Shown: piece after piece, positions 52,517-63,000 of the stretch
Numbering within the stretch: the first letter of the stretch is position 1
Layout: the number at the start of each line of letters is the position of its first letter
From: Phycisphaerae bacterium
Lineage (GTDB): Bacteria; Planctomycetota; Phycisphaerae; Sedimentisphaerales; Anaerobacaceae
Direction of reading: 5' to 3'
Assembly: GCA_028714855.1 (NCBI GenBank)
Contig: JAQTLP010000009.1
Span: 1 to 64,000 of the forward strand
Length of the DNA: 64,000 nucleotides
Program-made: the position numbers and the translations under genes
The notes under the pieces: model-generated
What the model was told of the DNA's origin: nothing
The model's input: the letters and a program-made list of their open reading frames with translations, nothing else
Databases searched by the model: none

Positions 52517-53710
52517 ATGAAGGTCAGTAAACGAGCGCAGGCGATACCACCTTCGGCAACTTTGGCTGTTACTTCGCGGGCGAAGGAATTGAAGGCCAAA
52601 GGTGTAGATATAGTCGGTTTTGGGGCAGGTGAGCCGGATTTCGACACGCCTGATTTTATCAAGGAAGCCGCGATAAAAGCTCTGAAGGCAGGCAAGACTA
52701 AATATACAGCTGAGTCTGGTATAGTTGAACTGCGAACCGCTATTGCCGCCAAGCTGGAAAAGGAAAACGGCCTCAAATACACGCCTGAGCAGGTCATAGT
52801 CAATATCGGCGGCAAGCACTCCGTTTATGAGGCGATGCAGGCAGCACTTGACCCGGGCGACGAGGTGATTTTACCTGTGCCGTATTGGGTAACATACCCT
52901 GAAGCGATAAAGCTCGCCGATGCAGTCCCTAAAATTGTTCAGACAGACAAGAAGAACAGTTATAAGATTACGCCGACCCAGTTGAAGCAGGCCGTCACAA
53001 AGAAGGCCGCTATGCTCGTGCTTAATTCGCCAAGTAATCCGGGCGGTTTTACTTATACTCCCGAAGAACTCAAGGCCATCGCAAAGGTCCTCGAAGGAAC
53101 ACAAGTGATGGTGCTTTCAGATGAAATTTATGAGAAGCTAATCTACGGCGATACCAAGTTTATAAGTTTCGCTTCGTTGTCCAAAGACGCCTATGACAGG
53201 ACACTGACCCTCAACGGCCTGAGCAAAACATATTCTATGACCGGATGGCGGCTTGGGTATGCTGCGGGGCCTCTGGAAGTTATAAAGGCAATGGGGCGTC
53301 TTCAATCTCATATGACCTCTAACGCCGTAACCTTCGCTCAATATGCGGCAATTGCTGCGTTGACCGACCCTGTTGCAGACCAGACCATAGAAAAAATGAG
53401 AGTGGAGTTTGAGCGTCGAGGCAAATATATGGCAGAGCGTTTGAACTCCATCGAAGGCGTTGAGTGTCTCGAATCTACCGGGGCTTTTTACTGTTTTCCT
53501 GATGTTTCGAGCCATTACGGCCGAACTATTAATGGAGCGAAAATCGGCGGCAGTATGGACTTTGCAAAAGCGCTTCTGGAGCAGGCCAATGTCGCTCTTG
53601 TTCCAGGCTTGCCGTTCGGGTGTGATGCAAATGTGCGGTTAAGTTTTGCCTGCTCGATTGAACAAATTACCAAAGGATTGGATAGATTAAAGAGATGGCT
53701 AAGTCAATGA
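52517..53710 (+). CDS. Class I PLP-dependent aminotransferase (aspartate-type)
   Basis: 397 residues of aminotransferase fold type I, subgroup I-gamma, related to AspB/AspC. PLP lysine in TLNGLSKTYSMTGWRLGYAA; GAGEPDFDTPDFIKEAAIKA and LNSPSNPGGFTYTPEELKAI are the co-substrate and phosphate-binding segments; ASLSKDAYDRT and VRLSFACSIEQI hold the carboxylate-binding Arg. It most likely makes aspartate from oxaloacetate and glutamate, but prephenate or other acceptors are possible. The stop overlaps the start of the next gene by 16 bases, which argues for coupling of this enzyme with the envelope genes that follow. Confidence 0.9.
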   Translation: MKVSKRAQAIPPSATLAVTSRAKELKAKGVDIVGFGAGEPDFDTPDFIKEAAIKALKAGKTKYTAESGIVELRTAIAAKLEKENGLKYTPEQVIVNIGGKHSVYEAMQAALDPGDEVILPVPYWVTYPEAIKLADAVPKIVQTDKKNSYKITPTQLKQAVTKKAAMLVLNSPSNPGGFTYTPEELKAIAKVLEGTQVMVLSDEIYEKLIYGDTKFISFASLSKDAYDRTLTLNGLSKTYSMTGWRLGYAAGPLEVIKAMGRLQSHMTSNAVTFAQYAAIAALTDPVADQTIEKMRVEFERRGKYMAERLNSIEGVECLESTGAFYCFPDVSSHYGRTINGAKIGGSMDFAKALLEQANVALVPGLPFGCDANVRLSFACSIEQITKGLDRLKRWLSQ

Positions 53711-56691
53711 ACAACGTTAGAAATTCTAAAGGAAACAAGACTACGGCAGAACCCCCTGAAGTTTCTGCTGCGGTAGATATCCCAAGTCGCCATGCGTTGT
53801 CCGGCTGGCCGATGATATTGGGGTGGCTGGCAATGCTCATTTTTGCCTTTCACGCCAGCACGCATATGGTCGGGGCCGGCGATACTTGGGTCGCAATGGC
53901 CTGCGGCCGGCATTTTATCAATCACGGTGTTAACACAGTCGAGCCATTCAGCGCAAACTCACACAAGGCAGGCCCAACAGAAGTGGAAATCGCGACATGG
54001 CCGAACTGGGCACAATGGATTACGCAGAAAGTCGGCATTGAAACAGTTAAATACTGGCATCCGACCGGCTGGGTCAACCAAAACTGGCTGACACACGTTA
54101 TTTTTTACTGGCTGACAACCTTGTCTCCTTTCGCGGACGCCGAGACTTTTTCATTTAATACGCTGGTTTATTGGAAGTTTGCGATTTATATAGTTACCGT
54201 GATTTGTGTTTACTACACCGGCCGATTATTGGGGGTCAATCCGGCTTTGTCGGCAGTGCTCGCCTGCTTTGCGATGTTTACGGGGCGTTCCTTTCTTGAC
54301 GTTCGTCCTGCGGGTTTCTCGAATTTGCTGGTTGCCGTATTTTTACTTATACTTGTCCTTGCTACGTATCGAAACATATTATATATCTGGCTTATTATTC
54401 CGCTCACTATTTTCTGGTGTAATGTCCATGGCGGGTACGTTTATGCGTTCATAATGCTCGTGCCATTCGTGGTTTTGCATCTTCTAACGAGTATCTCCAG
54501 AGGAAGGTTTGTTTCCATCGGTCTAAAAGGAGTTTATCATACTATTGCCGCCGGCTTTATCGCTTTTGTTGCGGTGATAGTATTCAATCCTTTTCACCTT
54601 ACAAATCTTACGCATACTTACGTTATCAGCTTTAGTAAACACGCTGAAATGTGGCGTACTGTTAACGAGTGGCATCCTGCTTTTGCATGGCAAAATCCCG
54701 TTGGTACAGGATTCCCATTTTTAGTTCTTTTTATTTTAAGTATCGGTTTGCCTTTGTTTTGGCTCTTCAGCTATTTTATGAAACCCAAATTGCTGAGAGC
54801 ACCGAAGGGTGAACTTGAGGTACAGGAAAAGCTATTCAAAGCTCTCTCGACAATCTTCGGCTTCGCGGCCGCTGTACTTATATGCTGGATTACATTTATT
54901 TCCTTCTCTTTTGTTAAAGCTGATGTGGCGAGCCTGCTTTTATGTACTACATTTGTGTGCATCCTGCTGCTCAGTATTTATAAAAGTGTTTATTTCATTC
55001 ATTTGGCAATCGGCCTAACGCTGCTGGCTATGGGCGTTAGTGATGCGAATGCCAACTATTCCGGAAGATATATCTATCCGTTTGTTATACTGCCTGCTTA
55101 TGTCATACTGCATATTTTTGTCCTGCTGTTCTCGAAGACCGTTAAATTCAAACCCAAAAATATTGCCTTTGTTGTTCTTGCGGCTGTTGTTTCATTGTTG
55201 TTAATGTTTATTATCTTTAATCCTTTCAAGTTTAATATGCCTTTTTTAAACGCTGTGAAGCAGTTTGTGGAATTGCATCGGACATGGAGCCCCGAGTATG
55301 AACGCAACCTTGATATAACTTATGAACACCTTTTTGGTGTCATTTATATTGTGAACATTGGTTCGATTATCCTTTGGTTAACACTTCCTCGCCTGCAAAA
55401 ATTATTCGCTTCAATTCCGAATAAAATCCGTGAAGGATCCCGGGCCGTTCAATATGAAATACCTAAACTTGATTTGCCGTTAATAGCCATCGCTGCTCTT
55501 ACCATTTATATGGCTTATCGTTCCCGCAGGTTTGTACCGATAGCAGGTATTGTAGCATGTCCAATTGCAGCGATGCTTATTGACCAGATAGCTCGCACAA
55601 TCTCAGCTTCACGTAATTACTATAAAACCCGTTCTTTTTCCGTAGGTCCAATGCCATATAACCTTCAGGTATTTTTTATCTTTGCTGCCGCGGTAGCGGT
55701 TATGGCTTTTGGCATCTCGTGGGGACTACAATTCAAGCATGTTTATCTTGATTGCTGGCCCTCCGGTGCGAGATTAAATTCCGTTTTTATGCGGATGACA
55801 GCATCGAATGTCAAACCGTTTGACGGCTGTAAGTTTATAAGAGACAATAAGTTAAAAGGTAAAATGTTTAATTACTGGACCGAAGGCGGTTTCATTGCCT
55901 GGGGTCAGGAACCTGATCCGAATACAGGGAGAACCCCTCTGCAATTATTTGTGGATGGCCGCGCGCAGGCGGCGTATGAGCCGAAGGCTTACCGGATATG
56001 GTCCACTATTATGTCAGGAGGCCCGGCTCACCAAAGTGCGCTGATAAGAAAGGTTCCTTCTGATTATATCGAAATCGGCAAATGGGTGGATGAACAACTG
56101 AAAAAACATAATGTCTGGGTGGTTTTAATGCCGCTTGCCGACACAGAGGTGAATAACGGGCCTTTCGTAAAAGGCATTGAACGTAATCCTAACTGGGCTC
56201 TTGTCTTCTTTAATAACACAGAAAAAATCTTTGTCGATGTAACGACCCCGCAGGGCAGAGAGCTTTTAGAGGGCATATTCAAAGGTACGACGCTTTACCC
56301 AGATGAGTTTTCCAAAAACCTTGTTGTTGCTTATAACACCGCGGGTGGTGACTCAAAGAAACAAAGCCTTGACTTTGCAATCGAAGCCTTTAATTTATAC
56401 CCATCGCAAGCACCGTTACTGATTATTTTGCCTTTTGCTCAATACGCTGAGACGCTACCTGTTGTAAATGATTTCTGCAAAAATTATTTCGATGATTTCA
56501 CAAAAAATAAGAGTCTTTATGCAAAACAGGATGGATATCTCAATAGAATCTGGGCTGTATGGATCGTATGCAGATATTTGCGAGAAAGCGCTGCAATACA
56601 AGGTAACACCGAACTTGTACAATTTTATGACGCCAAGCTGCGAGAGTATCAGAGTGAACAGGAACCATTACAAAAGGGGAAGAAGTGGTGA
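53695..56691 (+). CDS. Large polytopic membrane protein, GT-C-like
   Basis: 998 residues with about a dozen membrane helices in the first 700 and a soluble C-terminal part. The N-terminus has the layout of uncharacterised GT-C glycosyltransferase-like proteins: a cytoplasmic tail, helix LGWLAMLIFAFHASTHMV, then a luminal Asp in GDTWVAMACGRHFINHG and NWLTHVIFYWL ahead of the second helix. Further on: WCNVHGGYVYAFIMLVPFVV. After residue 720 the soluble domain contains FNYWTEGGFIAWGQEPDPNT and FVDGRAQAAYEPKAYRIW. GT-C enzymes use lipid-linked sugar donors, and the next gene is a polyprenyl-phosphate-type glycosyltransferase, which fits. ATG 53695 overlaps the previous stop; ATG 53707 is an alternative. 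Confidence 0.75.
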   Translation: MAKSMNNVRNSKGNKTTAEPPEVSAAVDIPSRHALSGWPMILGWLAMLIFAFHASTHMVGAGDTWVAMACGRHFINHGVNTVEPFSANSHKAGPTEVEIATWPNWAQWITQKVGIETVKYWHPTGWVNQNWLTHVIFYWLTTLSPFADAETFSFNTLVYWKFAIYIVTVICVYYTGRLLGVNPALSAVLACFAMFTGRSFLDVRPAGFSNLLVAVFLLILVLATYRNILYIWLIIPLTIFWCNVHGGYVYAFIMLVPFVVLHLLTSISRGRFVSIGLKGVYHTIAAGFIAFVAVIVFNPFHLTNLTHTYVISFSKHAEMWRTVNEWHPAFAWQNPVGTGFPFLVLFILSIGLPLFWLFSYFMKPKLLRAPKGELEVQEKLFKALSTIFGFAAAVLICWITFISFSFVKADVASLLLCTTFVCILLLSIYKSVYFIHLAIGLTLLAMGVSDANANYSGRYIYPFVILPAYVILHIFVLLFSKTVKFKPKNIAFVVLAAVVSLLLMFIIFNPFKFNMPFLNAVKQFVELHRTWSPEYERNLDITYEHLFGVIYIVNIGSIILWLTLPRLQKLFASIPNKIREGSRAVQYEIPKLDLPLIAIAALTIYMAYRSRRFVPIAGIVACPIAAMLIDQIARTISASRNYYKTRSFSVGPMPYNLQVFFIFAAAVAVMAFGISWGLQFKHVYLDCWPSGARLNSVFMRMTASNVKPFDGCKFIRDNKLKGKMFNYWTEGGFIAWGQEPDPNTGRTPLQLFVDGRAQAAYEPKAYRIWSTIMSGGPAHQSALIRKVPSDYIEIGKWVDEQLKKHNVWVVLMPLADTEVNNGPFVKGIERNPNWALVFFNNTEKIFVDVTTPQGRELLEGIFKGTTLYPDEFSKNLVVAYNTAGGDSKKQSLDFAIEAFNLYPSQAPLLIILPFAQYAETLPVVNDFCKNYFDDFTKNKSLYAKQDGYLNRIWAVWIVCRYLRESAAIQGNTELVQFYDAKLREYQSEQEPLQKGKKW

Positions 56692-56694
56692 CCT

Positions 56695-57432
56695 GTGATA
56701 AAAGAAGATACATTGCCGGCTAACGTTTCAGAACCGAAAACATCGCTCAGTGTTTTCTTTCCTTGTTATAACGAGCAGGATAATGTTAATCGCACCGTGG
56801 AACAGGCACTTGCTGTTCTAAGTGGACTTAACGCCGATTTCGAAATAATTATTGTTGATGACGGCAGTTCCGATGCCACCGGGCAAATCGCCGACCAAAT
56901 CTCCCGACGAGACAGCAGGGTAAAAGTGGTGCACCACCACCCTAACCTCGGTTACGGGGCCGCATTGCAGTCCGGATTCAAGGCGGCCGCTAAAAAATAT
57001 GTTTTTTATGCTGATGGTGACGGCCAGTTCGATATCAGCGAATTGCCGCCGTTACTGCCGCTGATGAGCCAGTTCGATATTGTCAGCTGTTATCGACTTA
57101 ACCGTCAGGACAACTTTGTTCGCAGGTTCAACGGCTGGGCATGGACGAAACTGGTCTGCTTTTTACTCAATATAAAAATCCGTGACATCGACTGCGCTTT
57201 CAAACTTTATAAAAGGGAAATCTTTGACAATATCCAGATGTCGAGTATGGGCGCTCTGATAAACGCTGAGATTCTCGCCCGAGCAACCCGCAAAGGCTAT
57301 TCCATTACCCAAAAAGGCGTACATCATTATCCACGGACGGCCGGCACGCAAACCGGCGCTAATTTAAGAGTAATTCTTCGTGCGTTCAAAGAGTTGATCA
57401 AACTGCGCAGCAAAATTATAAGCGGAAGCTGA
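56695..57432 (+). CDS. GT2 glycosyltransferase, polyprenyl-phosphate-type
   Basis: 245 residues, GT-A fold without a membrane anchor. Motifs: SVFFPCYNEQDNVNRTVEQA, IIIVDDGSSDATGQIADQIS, NLGYGAALQSGFKAA, and VFYADGDGQFDISELPPLL with the metal-binding Asp-x-Asp. The pattern matches DPM1-like dolichol/undecaprenyl-phosphate mannose or glucose synthases, which make lipid-linked sugar donors for GT-C enzymes. Start is GTG 56695, three bases after the previous stop. It is likely to supply the donor used by the membrane protein at 53695, but the sugar is not evident. Confidence 0.9.
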   Translation: MIKEDTLPANVSEPKTSLSVFFPCYNEQDNVNRTVEQALAVLSGLNADFEIIIVDDGSSDATGQIADQISRRDSRVKVVHHHPNLGYGAALQSGFKAAAKKYVFYADGDGQFDISELPPLLPLMSQFDIVSCYRLNRQDNFVRRFNGWAWTKLVCFLLNIKIRDIDCAFKLYKREIFDNIQMSSMGALINAEILARATRKGYSITQKGVHHYPRTAGTQTGANLRVILRAFKELIKLRSKIISGS

Positions 57433-57442
57433 TAATTGGGGT

Positions 57443-59362
57443 ATGAACAAAGAGAAAGTCAATTTGTTCGTCTACGGCTCACTGCGGGAGCCCGAAATAT
57501 TCAAGTCGGTCAGCAGCTTGGGTTTTACTATTGACAGGTCACGGACCAACGAAGGAACCCTTTTAGCAGAGCCGGCTCTGCTGCCTTACTATCGAAAAGT
57601 AACGCCCGACAATGTCTATTTCTATGCCGTGCCGGACGCATCTTCAAAAATCGAAGGTTTCGTTATTTACGGAGTCCCACCGTCTGCAATGGCGGAAATT
57701 AACAGGTATGAAGGTAAACGCTATTACCGGGAAACAGTTCACGTCAATACCGCCAAGGGACTGATCGAGGCGCAGGCATATTTGGCCACTCGCGAATCAA
57801 TGAAAAAACGTTTCGGTGACAGATTCCACGTCAACCTGATACATGAGCTGTGGCTGCGAAAACGGATTGAAGGGTTTATAAAGAAACATACCCGCCCCGG
57901 CGAAGAAACCACCGACGCCAACCTCGAACGGCGGGCAGAACGAGAGCTGCTGGCGACCACCGAGCGCGACCTTGTAATAAGTCACTACCGCAGCGATGCC
58001 GTCAGCGACTATTATCTCGAACACGAACTGGACCGTCCCAGGCCAAGCATAAAACCCCTTCGCAGCGAGCCGGATGTTGCACCTTTTGTCAAAAATTATC
58101 TGGCACTGGTCATAAAACAGGTCATGCTCAATCAGCTCGACGAAAGAGTGCAGTCCCAATACCGTTTTGAGCTTGAGCATATACGTACTTCCGAAAGATA
58201 CTTCAAGCGCTCAATCAGTCTTCTCATCGCTTTACAGATGATAAACACCGATGATGTTGAACTTATTACCGGCAAGGCCCTCAAGACAATGTCATACCAG
58301 AAATACGACCTTATCGACTACGTCAAATATGCCGTTCAGGCAGCCGATAGCATATTTGATTCTCGCGTGGCTTACTCATATCTTGAGCGTGTCCGCACCA
58401 ACTTCCACCCCGGCCTTATACCGCTCGGAGCCGAGATAGAATTGAGCAATCTGGGTCCTGCCACTGTTGAGTCGCAGGGAAACTCTCAGAAAAAAACCGA
58501 CCCGGCATATGATGGTTTTAGATACTTCCACGATTTTTGGCTTGATGTTTTATCATGGAAACTCGGCGGTTATATCGATGACCACACCGGCGAAACTGAA
58601 CGGGCACGCCGCTGCGGTTTTTTGGAGCTGGCGCCCGGCAGACTGAATATCGCAGGCGAACTGTCCCGGCCTGCAACGGCTGACCCCTGGCTTCTCAACC
58701 AATTGATACACGAAATCAGCAAATTCTATAAAGTGGCACCGCACAGTCTGCATTTGTCTTTTCAGCTTCGCAAGGACCAAATCGGCAGCCAGAAAGTCCT
58801 CCCGTTGGATTTCGTCAAGTGCCTGCTTGCGCTGGGCGGTGGTTTGCAGAAGCAAAGCAGCGGCAGATTATGGATTTCGAGAATGGGCAATGATGAAATA
58901 ACCCAGCGCAGCGACGGCGAAGAAGAGCTTGTCTTTGCCAGAACCAGCAAGCGCAAATGGTATCTCGGTGAAGATGAAGTCGCCGACAAAGCTCCTCCTC
59001 AGGCCACTACATATACCCAGCAGTATAAGTTCATTCGTCTCGATAAAGAGATTAATTATGAGCCGTTAATCCTGTGCCTTAAAGGTCTTCAAATAGCCTA
59101 TAATCCTGGCGATTACTTAAGTATCAAGCAGCTGAAAGCGAGTAAGAAATTACAAAAGGACTACGAAGAGCTTAAGGAATGGGCGCTTGAGCCCGCGGAA
59201 ATCGAGCCGCAGATAATAAGCAGGTTTCTGGATACCATTCAGGGCGGGTTAATGAACGAGAGGCACCGCCGTCCCGCCCATAAACTGCACTATATCGATT
59301 GGGCAATAGATGCCATTGACGCGCAACTGCAGAAGTTCAATAAACAGGTTATCACTTCTTAG
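57443..59362 (+). CDS. Gamma-glutamylcyclotransferase-like domain fused to an amidoligase-like domain
   Basis: 639 residues. Residues 1-115 are an AIG2/GGCT-type domain: VNLFVYGSLREPEIFKSV with the substrate-binding YGSL loop, and AEINRYEGKRYYRETVHV with Glu90 in the position of the catalytic acid. Residues 320-450 contain a pattern like the glutamine synthetase/GCS-fold amidoligases: LIPLGAEIELSNLGP (Glu-x-Glu), FLELAPGRLNIAGELSRP, and APHSLHLSFQL. Between them is a helical region (residues 120-310). Published comparative work links amidoligase and AIG2-like genes, so a peptide-ligating and cyclising pair is plausible, but the metal ligands need checking. The start is 11 bases after the GT2 gene, and the stop overlaps the convergent Nudix gene by 11. 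Confidence 0.6.
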   Translation: MNKEKVNLFVYGSLREPEIFKSVSSLGFTIDRSRTNEGTLLAEPALLPYYRKVTPDNVYFYAVPDASSKIEGFVIYGVPPSAMAEINRYEGKRYYRETVHVNTAKGLIEAQAYLATRESMKKRFGDRFHVNLIHELWLRKRIEGFIKKHTRPGEETTDANLERRAERELLATTERDLVISHYRSDAVSDYYLEHELDRPRPSIKPLRSEPDVAPFVKNYLALVIKQVMLNQLDERVQSQYRFELEHIRTSERYFKRSISLLIALQMINTDDVELITGKALKTMSYQKYDLIDYVKYAVQAADSIFDSRVAYSYLERVRTNFHPGLIPLGAEIELSNLGPATVESQGNSQKKTDPAYDGFRYFHDFWLDVLSWKLGGYIDDHTGETERARRCGFLELAPGRLNIAGELSRPATADPWLLNQLIHEISKFYKVAPHSLHLSFQLRKDQIGSQKVLPLDFVKCLLALGGGLQKQSSGRLWISRMGNDEITQRSDGEEELVFARTSKRKWYLGEDEVADKAPPQATTYTQQYKFIRLDKEINYEPLILCLKGLQIAYNPGDYLSIKQLKASKKLQKDYEELKEWALEPAEIEPQIISRFLDTIQGGLMNERHRRPAHKLHYIDWAIDAIDAQLQKFNKQVITS

Positions 59363-59846: not shown

Positions 59847-59911
59847 AAGGTCCCTAATTTAACAACTCATCCGCAAACAATCAATTGCTTAAAATCTCTT
59901 TATCGCTTAAA

Positions 59912-61801
59912 ATGACTAATCTTATGGCCTGTTCACAAAACAAAATTCAAATCGCTTCGCTCCAGCTTGGTAACGGCTGGAGCGGCAGGGTGGTATTATC
60001 AGACCTTTCAAGCGGCGTAGAGTTTTCGGCAGCGGACTGGATTAAGTGCCTCTCGCAGCCGCACCTGTTGTTCGAGGACGTCTCGAAAACCATCAAAGTA
60101 GAAGGCCGCAATCGCGTCGCGATAAAAAACCTCACTATCGCAGGTACAAATCTGAAAGCGGTAATTAAACGGAGCTGGCCTGAAGATGGTTTCAGTCAGT
60201 TTTTCCGCTCGTTCCGCTCCGGCAGGGCGGTGCGAAATTTCGATACAGCTTTGACACTTCATCGCCTCGGGATTCCGGCGGTGGCCCCGCTTGCGGTCAT
60301 GCAGGAAAAGAAAGGCCCGCTTACCCGCCAGAGTATCTACATCACCCGCTATCTCGAAGAAAGCTATGACCTCCGCGACTTTTGCCGCCAGTATATATCG
60401 GAGAGGCGACTATCGTTAAGAAAGCATCTCTCCAATCAGCTCGCCTCGATACTGGCGACGCTGCACAAAAACGGTTTATGGCACAGAGACTCGAAAGCGA
60501 ATAATTTTCTCGTTACACCGCAAGGTGGGGATAAATACAAAGTTCTGCTCACCGATATGGATGGTATTAAGCCGTATCGGCTGCGGCGAGAGGCTTGCCG
60601 GTTACGTTCATTGTGGCAGCTCGCCGCGTCGCTTATGTCCATCCCCGCTGTCAGCCGGACGGATTACCTGCGATTCTTTTTAGACTATTGTAATCTTACA
60701 GATATTGCCCCTTCGCAGCGGCGGGAGATTTACCGTCAGCTTGCGGAAATGGCCAAAGCTAAATATCGCCGCTTGACGCGGAAAAATATCCTGATAATCA
60801 AGCCCAGCTCGCTGGGTGACGTGGTTATGGCGCTGCCGGCGCTTTCGGCCCTTCGCAGGAGCTTTCCCCAGGCGAAGATTAGCTGGTTTATCCGGCCGGA
60901 GTTCGCGCCGCTTATTAAAAATCACCCCGATTTAAATGAGGTAATTCTTTTTGAGCGTAAGTTCTTGGGTCGTGCGTTGTCTAATCCGCGTGCTTTTGGC
61001 GCATTGGTTGCGCTTATCTGGCGGATTAATCGCTGTAAATTCGACATAGTAATCGACCTGCAGGGCCTGTTCCGCACCGCTGCTTTTGCCTGGCTGTCGG
61101 GCTGTAAAAAGCGTTTCGGAATGGCAAACGCCGGGGAATTCGCCCATCTCTTTTACACGAATAAGATTAAACAGGATAGTGTCTGTATCCACCTTGTCGA
61201 TTACTACCTCGAAATTGTCCGCCAGGCCGGCGCTGCAAAGATAGATGTGCAATTCCTGCTGCCGGTAGATTCTGTTGCTGCTGATTCGGTCAATAGATTG
61301 CTGAAAGCAAAAGACATTAAACCTGATAATTACGCCGTTTTTGTCCCCACGTCCGCACACGAGGATAAATGCTGGCCGGTTGAGCGTTTCGCCGCTTTGG
61401 CTGATAAAATTACTAAGCAATTTCACCTCTCCATAATCGCTACCGGCTCGGCTTCCGAAAAGCCAATTGTGGAAAGGCTCAAAAATAAAGCCAATGTCCC
61501 GATAGCCAATTTCGCGGGCGTAACTTCTATCGGCGAGCTGGTTACTCTGCTCAAAGGCGCCCGGCTGGTGGTAAGCAATGATACCGGCCCGGGGCATATA
61601 GCCGCGGCTTTGGGCGTGCCGGTTGTTTTGATTTTCGGCAGGTCTAATCCCGCCCGCGTGGCCCCTTACGGCAGGCCTGATTGCGCCGCGGCCATTGAGC
61701 CGAATGGCAGGGGCTTCGAGGCCGACAGCACTGACCCGAAACACGATATTAAAGCAATAACAGTCGATGAGGTTTATCAAAAGGTATGTGAGCAGCTTTA
61801 A
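59912..61801 (+). CDS. LPS-kinase-like domain fused to a heptosyltransferase (GT9)
   Basis: 629 residues. Residues about 60-290 are a lipopolysaccharide/Kdo-kinase (WaaP/KdkA) type domain: KAVIKRSWPEDGFSQFFRSF, RLGIPAVAPLAVM, YITRYLEESYDLRDF, catalytic HRDSKANNFLV and metal-binding LLTDMDG. Residues 300-629 are an ADP-heptose:LPS heptosyltransferase-type GT9 domain: ILIIKPSSLGDVVMALPALS, DIVIDLQGLFRTA, KRFGMANAG, VPTSAHEDKCWPVERFAALA, and VVSNDTGPGHIAAALGVPVV LIFG. So one protein probably adds a heptose to the LPS core and phosphorylates it. ATG 59912 follows TTG 59885; neither has a clear ribosome site. Confidence 0.86.
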   Translation: MTNLMACSQNKIQIASLQLGNGWSGRVVLSDLSSGVEFSAADWIKCLSQPHLLFEDVSKTIKVEGRNRVAIKNLTIAGTNLKAVIKRSWPEDGFSQFFRSFRSGRAVRNFDTALTLHRLGIPAVAPLAVMQEKKGPLTRQSIYITRYLEESYDLRDFCRQYISERRLSLRKHLSNQLASILATLHKNGLWHRDSKANNFLVTPQGGDKYKVLLTDMDGIKPYRLRREACRLRSLWQLAASLMSIPAVSRTDYLRFFLDYCNLTDIAPSQRREIYRQLAEMAKAKYRRLTRKNILIIKPSSLGDVVMALPALSALRRSFPQAKISWFIRPEFAPLIKNHPDLNEVILFERKFLGRALSNPRAFGALVALIWRINRCKFDIVIDLQGLFRTAAFAWLSGCKKRFGMANAGEFAHLFYTNKIKQDSVCIHLVDYYLEIVRQAGAAKIDVQFLLPVDSVAADSVNRLLKAKDIKPDNYAVFVPTSAHEDKCWPVERFAALADKITKQFHLSIIATGSASEKPIVERLKNKANVPIANFAGVTSIGELVTLLKGARLVVSNDTGPGHIAAALGVPVVLIFGRSNPARVAPYGRPDCAAAIEPNGRGFEADSTDPKHDIKAITVDEVYQKVCEQL

Positions 61802-62238: not shown

Positions 62239-63000
62239 TTACGTTTTTTTTAAGAAAGCTGCGCCGAGGCCGAGCAGTAAAACCGTCGCCGGTTCAGGAG
62301 CCCCAATTACCCGGATGTTATCTACTGCACAACCCGGTATATTGGTGAAATCGCTGTCATCCCGTAAACTGAACCTGATACTTTCTATTATATCCGGAGG
62401 TTCCGGATAAGCCTGGGAAGTGTGAAAAAACTGTCCTGTCCATAAGTGATTTGAATTAGAATAGATGCTCCATAAGTTGTTCTCCATGTTAACAGTCACC
62501 GACATTGAGACCGTCTGTCCAAAATCAAAGGACCCAATTATATCGCCGTATGTTAAGTAACCATTTTCCAGAATGTTGCCGTAGGAATTCAAATCAAGCC
62601 TGACTACACTTGGCGTATCAAACAATACAACAAAGTTGTCATAAGCTCCTGCCATGAAGTTTTCCATGTATACATCGAAATCTAACCGGTAAACGGGATA
62701 ATGCTCAGTAAATTCCAAGTCGAGTTTGAATTGTGAGTATCGCAGAAATCCTGAGTCTTCTGGTATTAATTCGACTGGCTGCTGCGTCAGGCTGCCGAAT
62801 GAATTTCTTACAATCTGGTCGCCGAATATACTTTCAGTCGGAGTATTACGCGGCGGAGGACTATCTCCAGTGGTCATTTGTGAACCTACAGTGTGTGCAG
62901 GTGAGGAAAAATCAATATTATATATAGTATCGGCTTTTGTGAAAACCGGCAGGAATAATAAGAAAAGTGCCAGCAGCAAAAATAAAGTATTTCTTTTCAT
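62239..63000 (-). CDS. PEP-CTERM exported protein, 253 residues
   Basis: Signal peptide MKRNTLFLLLALFLLFLPVF, then a beta-rich 200-residue body with a jelly-roll-like pattern (YRLDFDVYMENFMAGAYDNF, VSMSVTVNMENNLWSIYS), and a C-terminal PEP-CTERM signal APEPATVLLLGLGAAFLKKT; the basic tail has lysines only, a weaker version than the arginine clusters at 9674 and 10806. GAGAAGGAGAAG precedes the ATG. It shows no similarity to the three other PEP-CTERM proteins of the window beyond the signals. Likely surface- or matrix-located; the beta-sandwich could bind carbohydrate. Confidence 0.82.
   Translation of the reverse strand: MKRNTLFLLLALFLLFLPVFTKADTIYNIDFSSPAHTVGSQMTTGDSPPPRNTPTESIFGDQIVRNSFGSLTQQPVELIPEDSGFLRYSQFKLDLEFTEHYPVYRLDFDVYMENFMAGAYDNFVVLFDTPSVVRLDLNSYGNILENGYLTYGDIIGSFDFGQTVSMSVTVNMENNLWSIYSNSNHLWTGQFFHTSQAYPEPPDIIESIRFSLRDDSDFTNIPGCAVDNIRVIGAPEPATVLLLGLGAAFLKKT

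Follow-up and report, generated by a model that had tools for sequence, protein, structure and literature searches.

W18, a single 639-residue chain encoded in the window (the whole 64,000-nucleotide stretch of the Phycisphaerae bacterium contig that was analyzed), carries an N-terminal gamma-glutamyl cyclotransferase (GGACT) domain fused to a C-terminal domain predicted to belong to the GS/GCS/PafA-Dop superfamily. The first-pass annotation had proposed such a fusion, of a cyclotransferase with a GCS- or amidoligase-type domain, and residue conservation, structure prediction and fold comparison now support it, with the C-terminal fold standing as a prediction. The features of W18 are as follows, with the basis of each in brackets.

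57443..59362, + strand: W18, 639 aa, comprising GGACT domain, helical linker region and GS/GCS-superfamily domain, the last as predicted (ORF, relatives, dN/dS)
57464..57793, + strand: GGACT/AIG2-like gamma-glutamyl cyclotransferase domain, residues 8-117, with Y11, G12, S13 and E90 invariant (Pfam, alignment, fold)
57794..58402, + strand: middle region, residues 118-320, predicted to be mostly helical (predicted models)
57812..57868, + strand: linker motif FGDRxHVNLIxELWLRKRI, residues 124-142 (conservation)
58412..59356, + strand: predicted GS/GCS/PafA-Dop superfamily domain, residues 324-638 (predicted fold, fold comparison)
58427..58441, + strand: GAEIE, residues 329-333, the GhExE motif, on predicted core strand 1, residues 328-334 (conservation, model)
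58577..58579, + strand: D379, acid on predicted strand 2, residues 377-379, invariant in 87/87 (conservation, model)
58625..58627, + strand: E395, acid on predicted strand 3, residues 393-396, invariant in 87/87 (conservation, model)
58751..58753, + strand: H437 on predicted strand 4, where HxS replaces [HD]x[NH] (conservation, model)
58880..58882, + strand: R480, invariant Arg preceding predicted strand 5 (conservation)
59021..59038, + strand: QYKFIR, residues 527-532, at the end of predicted strand 6 (conservation, model)

The W18 reading frame (57443-59362, +) begins with ATG and has exactly the coordinates assigned to it previously; the opposite strand holds only two ORFs of at least 80 aa (127 and 100 aa). 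W18 was present in 40 of 61 near relatives and, in a sample of 148 genomes of the order, in 108, at 56-77% identity and without internal stops, which is far more than chance would produce. Among genomes with completeness of at least 90% and contamination of at most 5%, 49 of 66 carried it. By family, W18 occurred in 70 of 76 genomes of f1 (the family of the window's genome), 36 of 39 of f7, and the single genomes of f3 and f6; none was seen in f2 (0/13), f4 (0/5) or f5 (0/13). Comparison with the relative L052 gave dN 0.144 and dS 1.41, indicating that W18 is under strong purifying selection.

A full-length W18 profile matched 7 of 392 genomes from the phylum, all 7 from W18's own order. A C-terminal profile run on the same 392 genomes gave nine matches at E 0.1, namely the same 7 plus two weak ones (E 0.0105 and 0.0248), and the genome with the E 0.0105 match had no GS-like protein among its ORFs. 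Patterns drawn from the linker motif matched 135 stretches in genome contigs, 111 of which encode W18 relatives; 80 of these contigs were taken in and the other 31 left out. The 80 relatives are labeled Sedimentisphaerales, Phycisphaerae, Phycisphaerales, Anaerohalosphaeraceae or Planctomycetota MAGs, plus one Kuenenia. This last contig (L128), titled Candidatus Kuenenia stuttgartiensis, is probably a mislabeled MAG; its 56% match falls with Sedimentisphaerales. In IMG/VR there were 23 pattern matches and none was confirmed, and no relatives were found in the phages or plasmids searched. In the genomes searched, fused W18 was found only in the order Sedimentisphaerales.

The N-terminal domain is the better defined of the two by sequence. 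Residues 8-117 matched PF06094 (GGACT) at 45.3 bits, against a cut-off of 22.8, and the same match was obtained for 21 of 21 aligned family members, so the YGSL-type cyclotransferase domain noted at first pass is real. Residue conservation was counted over 87 unique W18 sequences. Y11, G12, S13 and E90 were invariant in all 87, and L14 was conserved in 86. A profile of the family found the plant AIG2 structures 2jqv and 2g0q, with YGS and E90 aligned to their counterparts, and the predicted N-terminal fold matched 2g0q with Z 13.7 (first model, described below). Another fold match, 3jud, is listed as an E82Q mutant. We take the Glu of the GGACT family that corresponds to E90 to be the catalytic residue. 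With the domain beginning as early as residue 7-8, there is no space for a signal peptide, so W18 is probably cytosolic. W18 thus shares with the GGACT/GGCT/AIG2 cyclotransferases of PF06094 an over-cut-off score, the YGS motif and the conserved Glu. It differs in its partner: the solved PF06094 proteins among the matches listed are mostly free-standing or have other fusion partners, whereas W18 has a predicted GS-superfamily domain.

We also searched for free-standing GGACT proteins. The profile matched W18 itself in 11 of 17 searched genomes known to hold it, and since it missed W18 in the other 6, its misses elsewhere are weak evidence. In the 11 genomes where it did match W18, no free-standing GGACT protein was found beside W18. 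Two f1 genomes that lack W18 carry a free-standing GGACT-like protein of ~140-160 aa (G077:C201:6953-7285 and G143:C137:14698-15018), only 24-27% identical to the W18 domain.

Sequence searches with the C-terminal half gave a different outcome. It had no match in Pfam, NCBIfam or PHROG, and a PDB sequence search with W18 returned the GGACT half only, along with chance-level rows. Among the candidate families, neither PF12224 (Amidoligase_2) nor PF14395 (phage COOH-NH2 ligase, Pfam-A scan) matched W18 up to E 1, and PF12224 had no match anywhere in the window's genome. Likewise, neither PF03136 (Pup_ligase, the PafA/Dop family) nor PF04107 (GCS2) gave a profile match to W18. True GCS2 proteins were detected in 2 of 61 relatives, with no match in the window's genome. 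Using hhalign, 98 W18 family sequences were compared with Amidoligase_2-type sequences (sets of five and three), two GCS2 and two PafA/Dop sequences, and no meaningful alignment emerged, the tiny reference sets making this a weak test. Eight of 12 Amidoligase_2 loci were used; four in which the open frame had been wrongly picked were dropped. Against the amidoligase of Arthrobacter phage Salgado, hhalign gave a non-significant E of 0.19, the sole aligned piece setting GAEIE on GVEVE. The profile search that the first-pass annotation proposed for this half therefore yielded no sequence-profile link to any ligase family.

Assignment of the C-terminal domain comes instead from predicted structure. 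Two AlphaFold2 models were made, one of the whole chain from 21 sequences (pLDDT 80.1, pTM 0.76) and one of residues 118-639 from 84 sequences (pLDDT 87.7, pTM 0.89). In the first, VIA-align placed residues 324-638 on Dop, PafA, YbdK, GshF and GCS with Z 11.1-13.3 (Dop 9cku, 13.3; PafA 4bjr, 13.0; YbdK 1r8g, 12.4). In the second, all 50 of the 50 matches listed were glutamine synthetase, gamma-glutamylcysteine ligase (or YbdK-like) or PafA/Dop structures, with Z 9.3-13.5. The best was Dop 9cku (Z 13.5, rmsd 4.3 over 243 residues), alongside PafA 4bjr (13.2, 4.1 over 245), GshF 3ln7 (12.8), YbdK 1r8g (12.2, 4.6 over 238) and GCS 2d32 (11.6, 4.7 over 263). In the second-model alignments, deviations are some 4 to 6 angstrom and sequence identity is 8-15%. 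Matches within 1 Z are tied, so the comparison does not select a subfamily for this domain. Foldseek alone gave a best E of 0.015 for the C-terminal model, with nothing at E 0.001 or better, and E 0.0065 to PafA for the first model; the top viral fold match was the Salgado amidoligase, a weak one (E 0.03, probability 0.82). The GCS-related fold expected for this part of the protein is thus predicted, with every listed match inside the superfamily, and these models support residues 324-638 adopting a GS/GCS/PafA-Dop fold. If so, the C-terminal half would represent a family within the GS superfamily that escapes Pfam's sequence profiles.

Five published superfamily motifs (GhExE, or Ex[EH], on strand 1; acids on strands 2 and 3; [HD]x[NH]; an Arg on strand 5 with another in the loop before it; and Ex[RK]x2D; PMC2588565, in the part of that paper covered) were then placed on W18 by predicted strand and motif order, rather than by residue-level superposition. 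They fall in order on the predicted strands and vary little or not at all among the sequences, three as published and two altered (strands 4 and 6). GhExE corresponds to G329-A-E331-I-E333, in which G and both E residues are present in 87 of 87 sequences. On strand 4, H437 is found in all 87, and position 439 is Ser (83 sequences) or Thr (4), where the superfamily has [HD]x[NH] and PafA has [HQ]x[NH]. Arginines associated with strand 5 include R500 (82/87) and R504 (86/87) on the predicted strand itself (499-505), and R480 (87/87) in the preceding loop. On strand 6, Q527-x-K529-x2-R532 is invariant at all three named positions (87/87), with R where D is expected from Ex[RK]x2D or [QH]x4D. The EIEL and HLSF motifs picked out at first pass are therefore genuine, and their Glu and His residues (E331, E333 and H437), predicted to be catalytic, are conserved among all homologues compared. 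A third proposed motif, GEL (405-407), is likewise conserved, although it probably does not supply the strand-3 acid, for which E395, within GFLELAPGRL, is the better candidate.

The helical region joining the two domains contains a further conserved element. Residues 124-142 are among the most conserved stretches of the chain, and the ten positions tested (F124, G125, D126, R127, H129, N131, E135, W137, R139 and R141) were invariant in 87 of 87 sequences. This motif, which has no known relative, is a low-confidence stretch in the whole-chain model.

Tentatively, and with slightly less than an even chance of being right, we read W18 as a bifunctional cytosolic enzyme that works on gamma-glutamyl groups, or on related side-chain amides, and combines ligation with cyclotransferase removal. 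GS-superfamily enzymes ligate via an acyl phosphate. In W18, five residues of a saddle-shaped sheet in the C-terminal domain (E331, E333, D379, E395 and H437) would hold ATP and a divalent metal. The domain would turn a carboxylate, for which the gamma-carboxylate of glutamate is the likeliest candidate, into an acyl phosphate and couple the group so activated to an amine. In the N-terminal domain, the YGS cradle would bind the gamma-glutamyl moiety and E90 would expel the amine, with release of 5-oxoproline. The presence of ligase-like and cyclotransferase domains in one chain suggests a cycle on a single amine, be it one of glutamyl attachment and removal, of a protecting group or of salvage. 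We infer that ATP is used, that glutamate donates the acyl group, which way each step runs and that the substrate is shared. There is precedent for glutamate as a removable amine carrier: the syntheses of fosfazinomycin, kinamycin and butirosin use it in this way (PMC6133997, in the part covered). A bolder version is a long shot: W18 might act as both writer and eraser, tagging an amine of a macromolecule or key metabolite with gamma-glutamyl at the expense of ATP and removing it as 5-oxoproline, with the linker FGDRxHVNLIxELWLRKRI passing substrate between sites, in a Pup-independent system of reversible glutamyl modification particular to these planctomycetes.

An alternative that we regard as unlikely is that W18 only removes. 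Here, a Dop-like, phosphate-assisted amidase or deamidase would act with the GGACT domain in a two-step degradation or salvage of gamma-glutamyl or isopeptide compounds. PafA and Dop have one fold and catalyze opposite reactions (PMC7947786, in the part covered), and Dop structures rank at or near the top of the fold comparison (Z 13.5 and 13.2). Yet PafA comes within 1 Z of Dop, which makes the two a tie, and the carboxylate-amine ligases GshF and YbdK lie within 0.7 to 1.3 Z, so the predicted C-terminal fold does not separate a ligase from a hydrolase. Moreover, the Pup ligase/Dop family is absent by profile from the window's genome, and only 1 of 120 genomes of the class has a match. On these same counts we rejected a pupylation-type system.

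A second alternative, and one we find distinctly doubtful, was put forward in the first-pass annotation: that the neighboring genes make a surface glycan or peptide to which W18 attaches an amino acid, or from which it trims one. The genes in question are listed here.

52517..53710, + strand: W15, class I/II aminotransferase, aspartate-aminotransferase-like; not required (family match)
53695..56691, + strand: W16, 998-aa membrane-like protein with no family match; not required (Pfam/NCBIfam search)
56695..57432, + strand: W17, GT2 glycosyltransferase, ending 10 bp upstream of W18 (ORF list, Pfam)

Family matches bear out the aminotransferase and the GT2. The suggestion that W16 is GT-C-like was not confirmed: its sequence matched neither a family in Pfam or NCBIfam nor an entry in the PDB. 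In the window, aminotransferase, membrane-like protein, GT2 and W18 follow one another on the + strand with overlaps or gaps of at most 10 bp; downstream lie a tail-to-tail NUDIX gene and then a Kdo-kinase/GT9 fusion. That fusion, at 59885-61801 (+), has Kdo/WaaP-type kinase and GT9 heptosyltransferase domains in one ORF, and is split into two adjacent ORFs in five relatives (L055, L059, L162, L164 and L168). Further on, at 62239-63000 (-), is a protein whose end, read by eye, resembles a PEP-CTERM sorting tail.

Tight spacing recurs among relatives and favors the glycan reading. An intact W18 ORF was present in 77 of 80 loci (all but L097, L106 and L126). Directly upstream of it lay a GT2 gene in 47 and an alanine racemase gene (Pfam) in 15, and the gap was at most 60 bp in 40/47 and 12/15 of these, respectively. 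Against it stand ten genomes without W18 whose neighborhoods were read (six f2, two f4 and two f1). The aminotransferase-membrane protein-GT2 row was present in 8 of 8 of the f2 and f4 genomes, with the racemase next in six; one f1 genome has the row as well, and in the second the contig stops partway through it. Across the 148 genomes of the order, moreover, the W16 membrane-protein family is the commoner, occurring in 142 against 108 for W18. The intact row in genomes without W18 indicates that the cluster stands and works without it, and that W18 sits inserted. A single insertion in an ancestor could account for its shared position, which may reflect mere inheritance, and the glycan genes are accordingly not counted here as evidence of the substrate. 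An amino-acid-modified surface glycan made together with these neighbors is thus unsupported, and, on the genomes read, an obligatory role for W18 in the cluster was rejected.

The racemase gene of f2 occupies the position that W18 has in f1. Replacement of alanine racemase by W18 was rejected, as f6 and f7 carry both genes. Ala_racemase_C (PF00842) matched 12 of 12 genomes searched from other families of the order but only 1 of 14 from f1; the window's genome is among the 13 without a match. Dala_Dala_lig_C gave matches in all 26 of these genomes, a profile that also matches other ATP-grasp enzymes.

A third alternative, which we judge improbable, is that one domain is dead, with either the GGACT or the GS-like part merely binding a gamma-glutamyl ligand and regulating the other. 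The deviations from superfamily motifs at GS-like strands 4 and 6 would fit this idea. So would the plant AIG2 structures nearest the N-domain, which to our knowledge are functionally uncharacterized. Invariance in 87 of 87 sequences of the acids at the predicted metal and ATP sites, and of H437, R480, Q527, K529 and E90, argues against it, as such conservation is unusual for dead domains. Finally, it is very improbable that the structural match is false and the C-terminal function unrelated: the family lacks sequence-level support and its alignments are loose and of low identity, but two models from different alignments agree, the 50 listed matches belong to one superfamily, and the published motifs map to the strands expected of them.

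How does the reading of W18 as a bifunctional ligase and cyclotransferase compare with known systems? Similar pairings have been reported as separate genes. Arthrobacter cluster AL phages have adjoining genes 97 and 98 for AIG2/GGCT and amidoligase (PMC5513430). In the Salgado record, gp97 is GGACT (67.4 bits), gp98 is Amidoligase_2 (122.9 bits) and gp99 is a glutamine amidotransferase, so that GGACT lies directly upstream of the amidoligase and the amidotransferase next downstream. Tn6164 has adjoining amidoligase and AIG2/GGCT genes, Orf22 and Orf23 (PMC3485107). A LUZ24-like phage has COOH-NH2 ligase, Amidoligase_2, glutamine amidotransferase, ATP-grasp and AIG2 genes in one region (PMC3890496). 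In Firmicutes, an uncharacterized GCS2-sized carboxylate-amine ligase family lies beside Aig2 GGCT genes, with peptide or metabolite synthesis suggested (Iyer, Burroughs and Aravind 2008, PMC2588565).

The gene pairs with Amidoligase_2 (PF12224) and GGACT combine the same two kinds of domain as W18. However, they are separate genes on phages and mobile elements, whereas W18 is one chain encoded in the chromosome, with an additional helical region that carries an invariant motif and a C-terminal half without a PF12224 match. The Firmicutes pairs, compared by description only and from the portion of that paper covered, resemble W18 in pairing and predicted general role, but are neighboring genes rather than a fusion. 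As for the solved folds, PafA and Dop (PF03136) are closest (Z 13.0-13.5) and have in common with W18 the GhExE of strand 1 and the strand-2 acid; W18 differs in lacking a Pup_ligase profile match, in its GGACT fusion and in that no second paralogue was seen. GCS2/YbdK and GshA/GshF share the predicted fold (Z 11.1-12.8) and metal-site motifs, but W18 has no GCS2 profile match, has HxS for HxH, and is fused to GGACT. We found no fused GGACT and GS-superfamily protein in the literature, of which our coverage is partial, and earlier amidoligase surveys may print one. The first-pass view that W18 looks undescribed accordingly holds for the fused protein, within the literature covered, but not for the pairing, which has already been described as separate neighboring genes. 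W18 is a fused, chromosomal version of the known cyclotransferase/amidoligase pairing, and, within the literature covered, it is the fusion that is new.

Cyclotransferase and amidoligase gene pairs recur on phages and mobile elements, and no product is named for them in the papers covered. That W18 is a single chain, chromosomal and slowly evolving strengthens the case for two activities acting on one substrate, and it offers one protein to purify and assay for the paired activities. If W18 does both add and remove glutamyl groups, it would be an unusual enzyme with a built-in on/off cycle.
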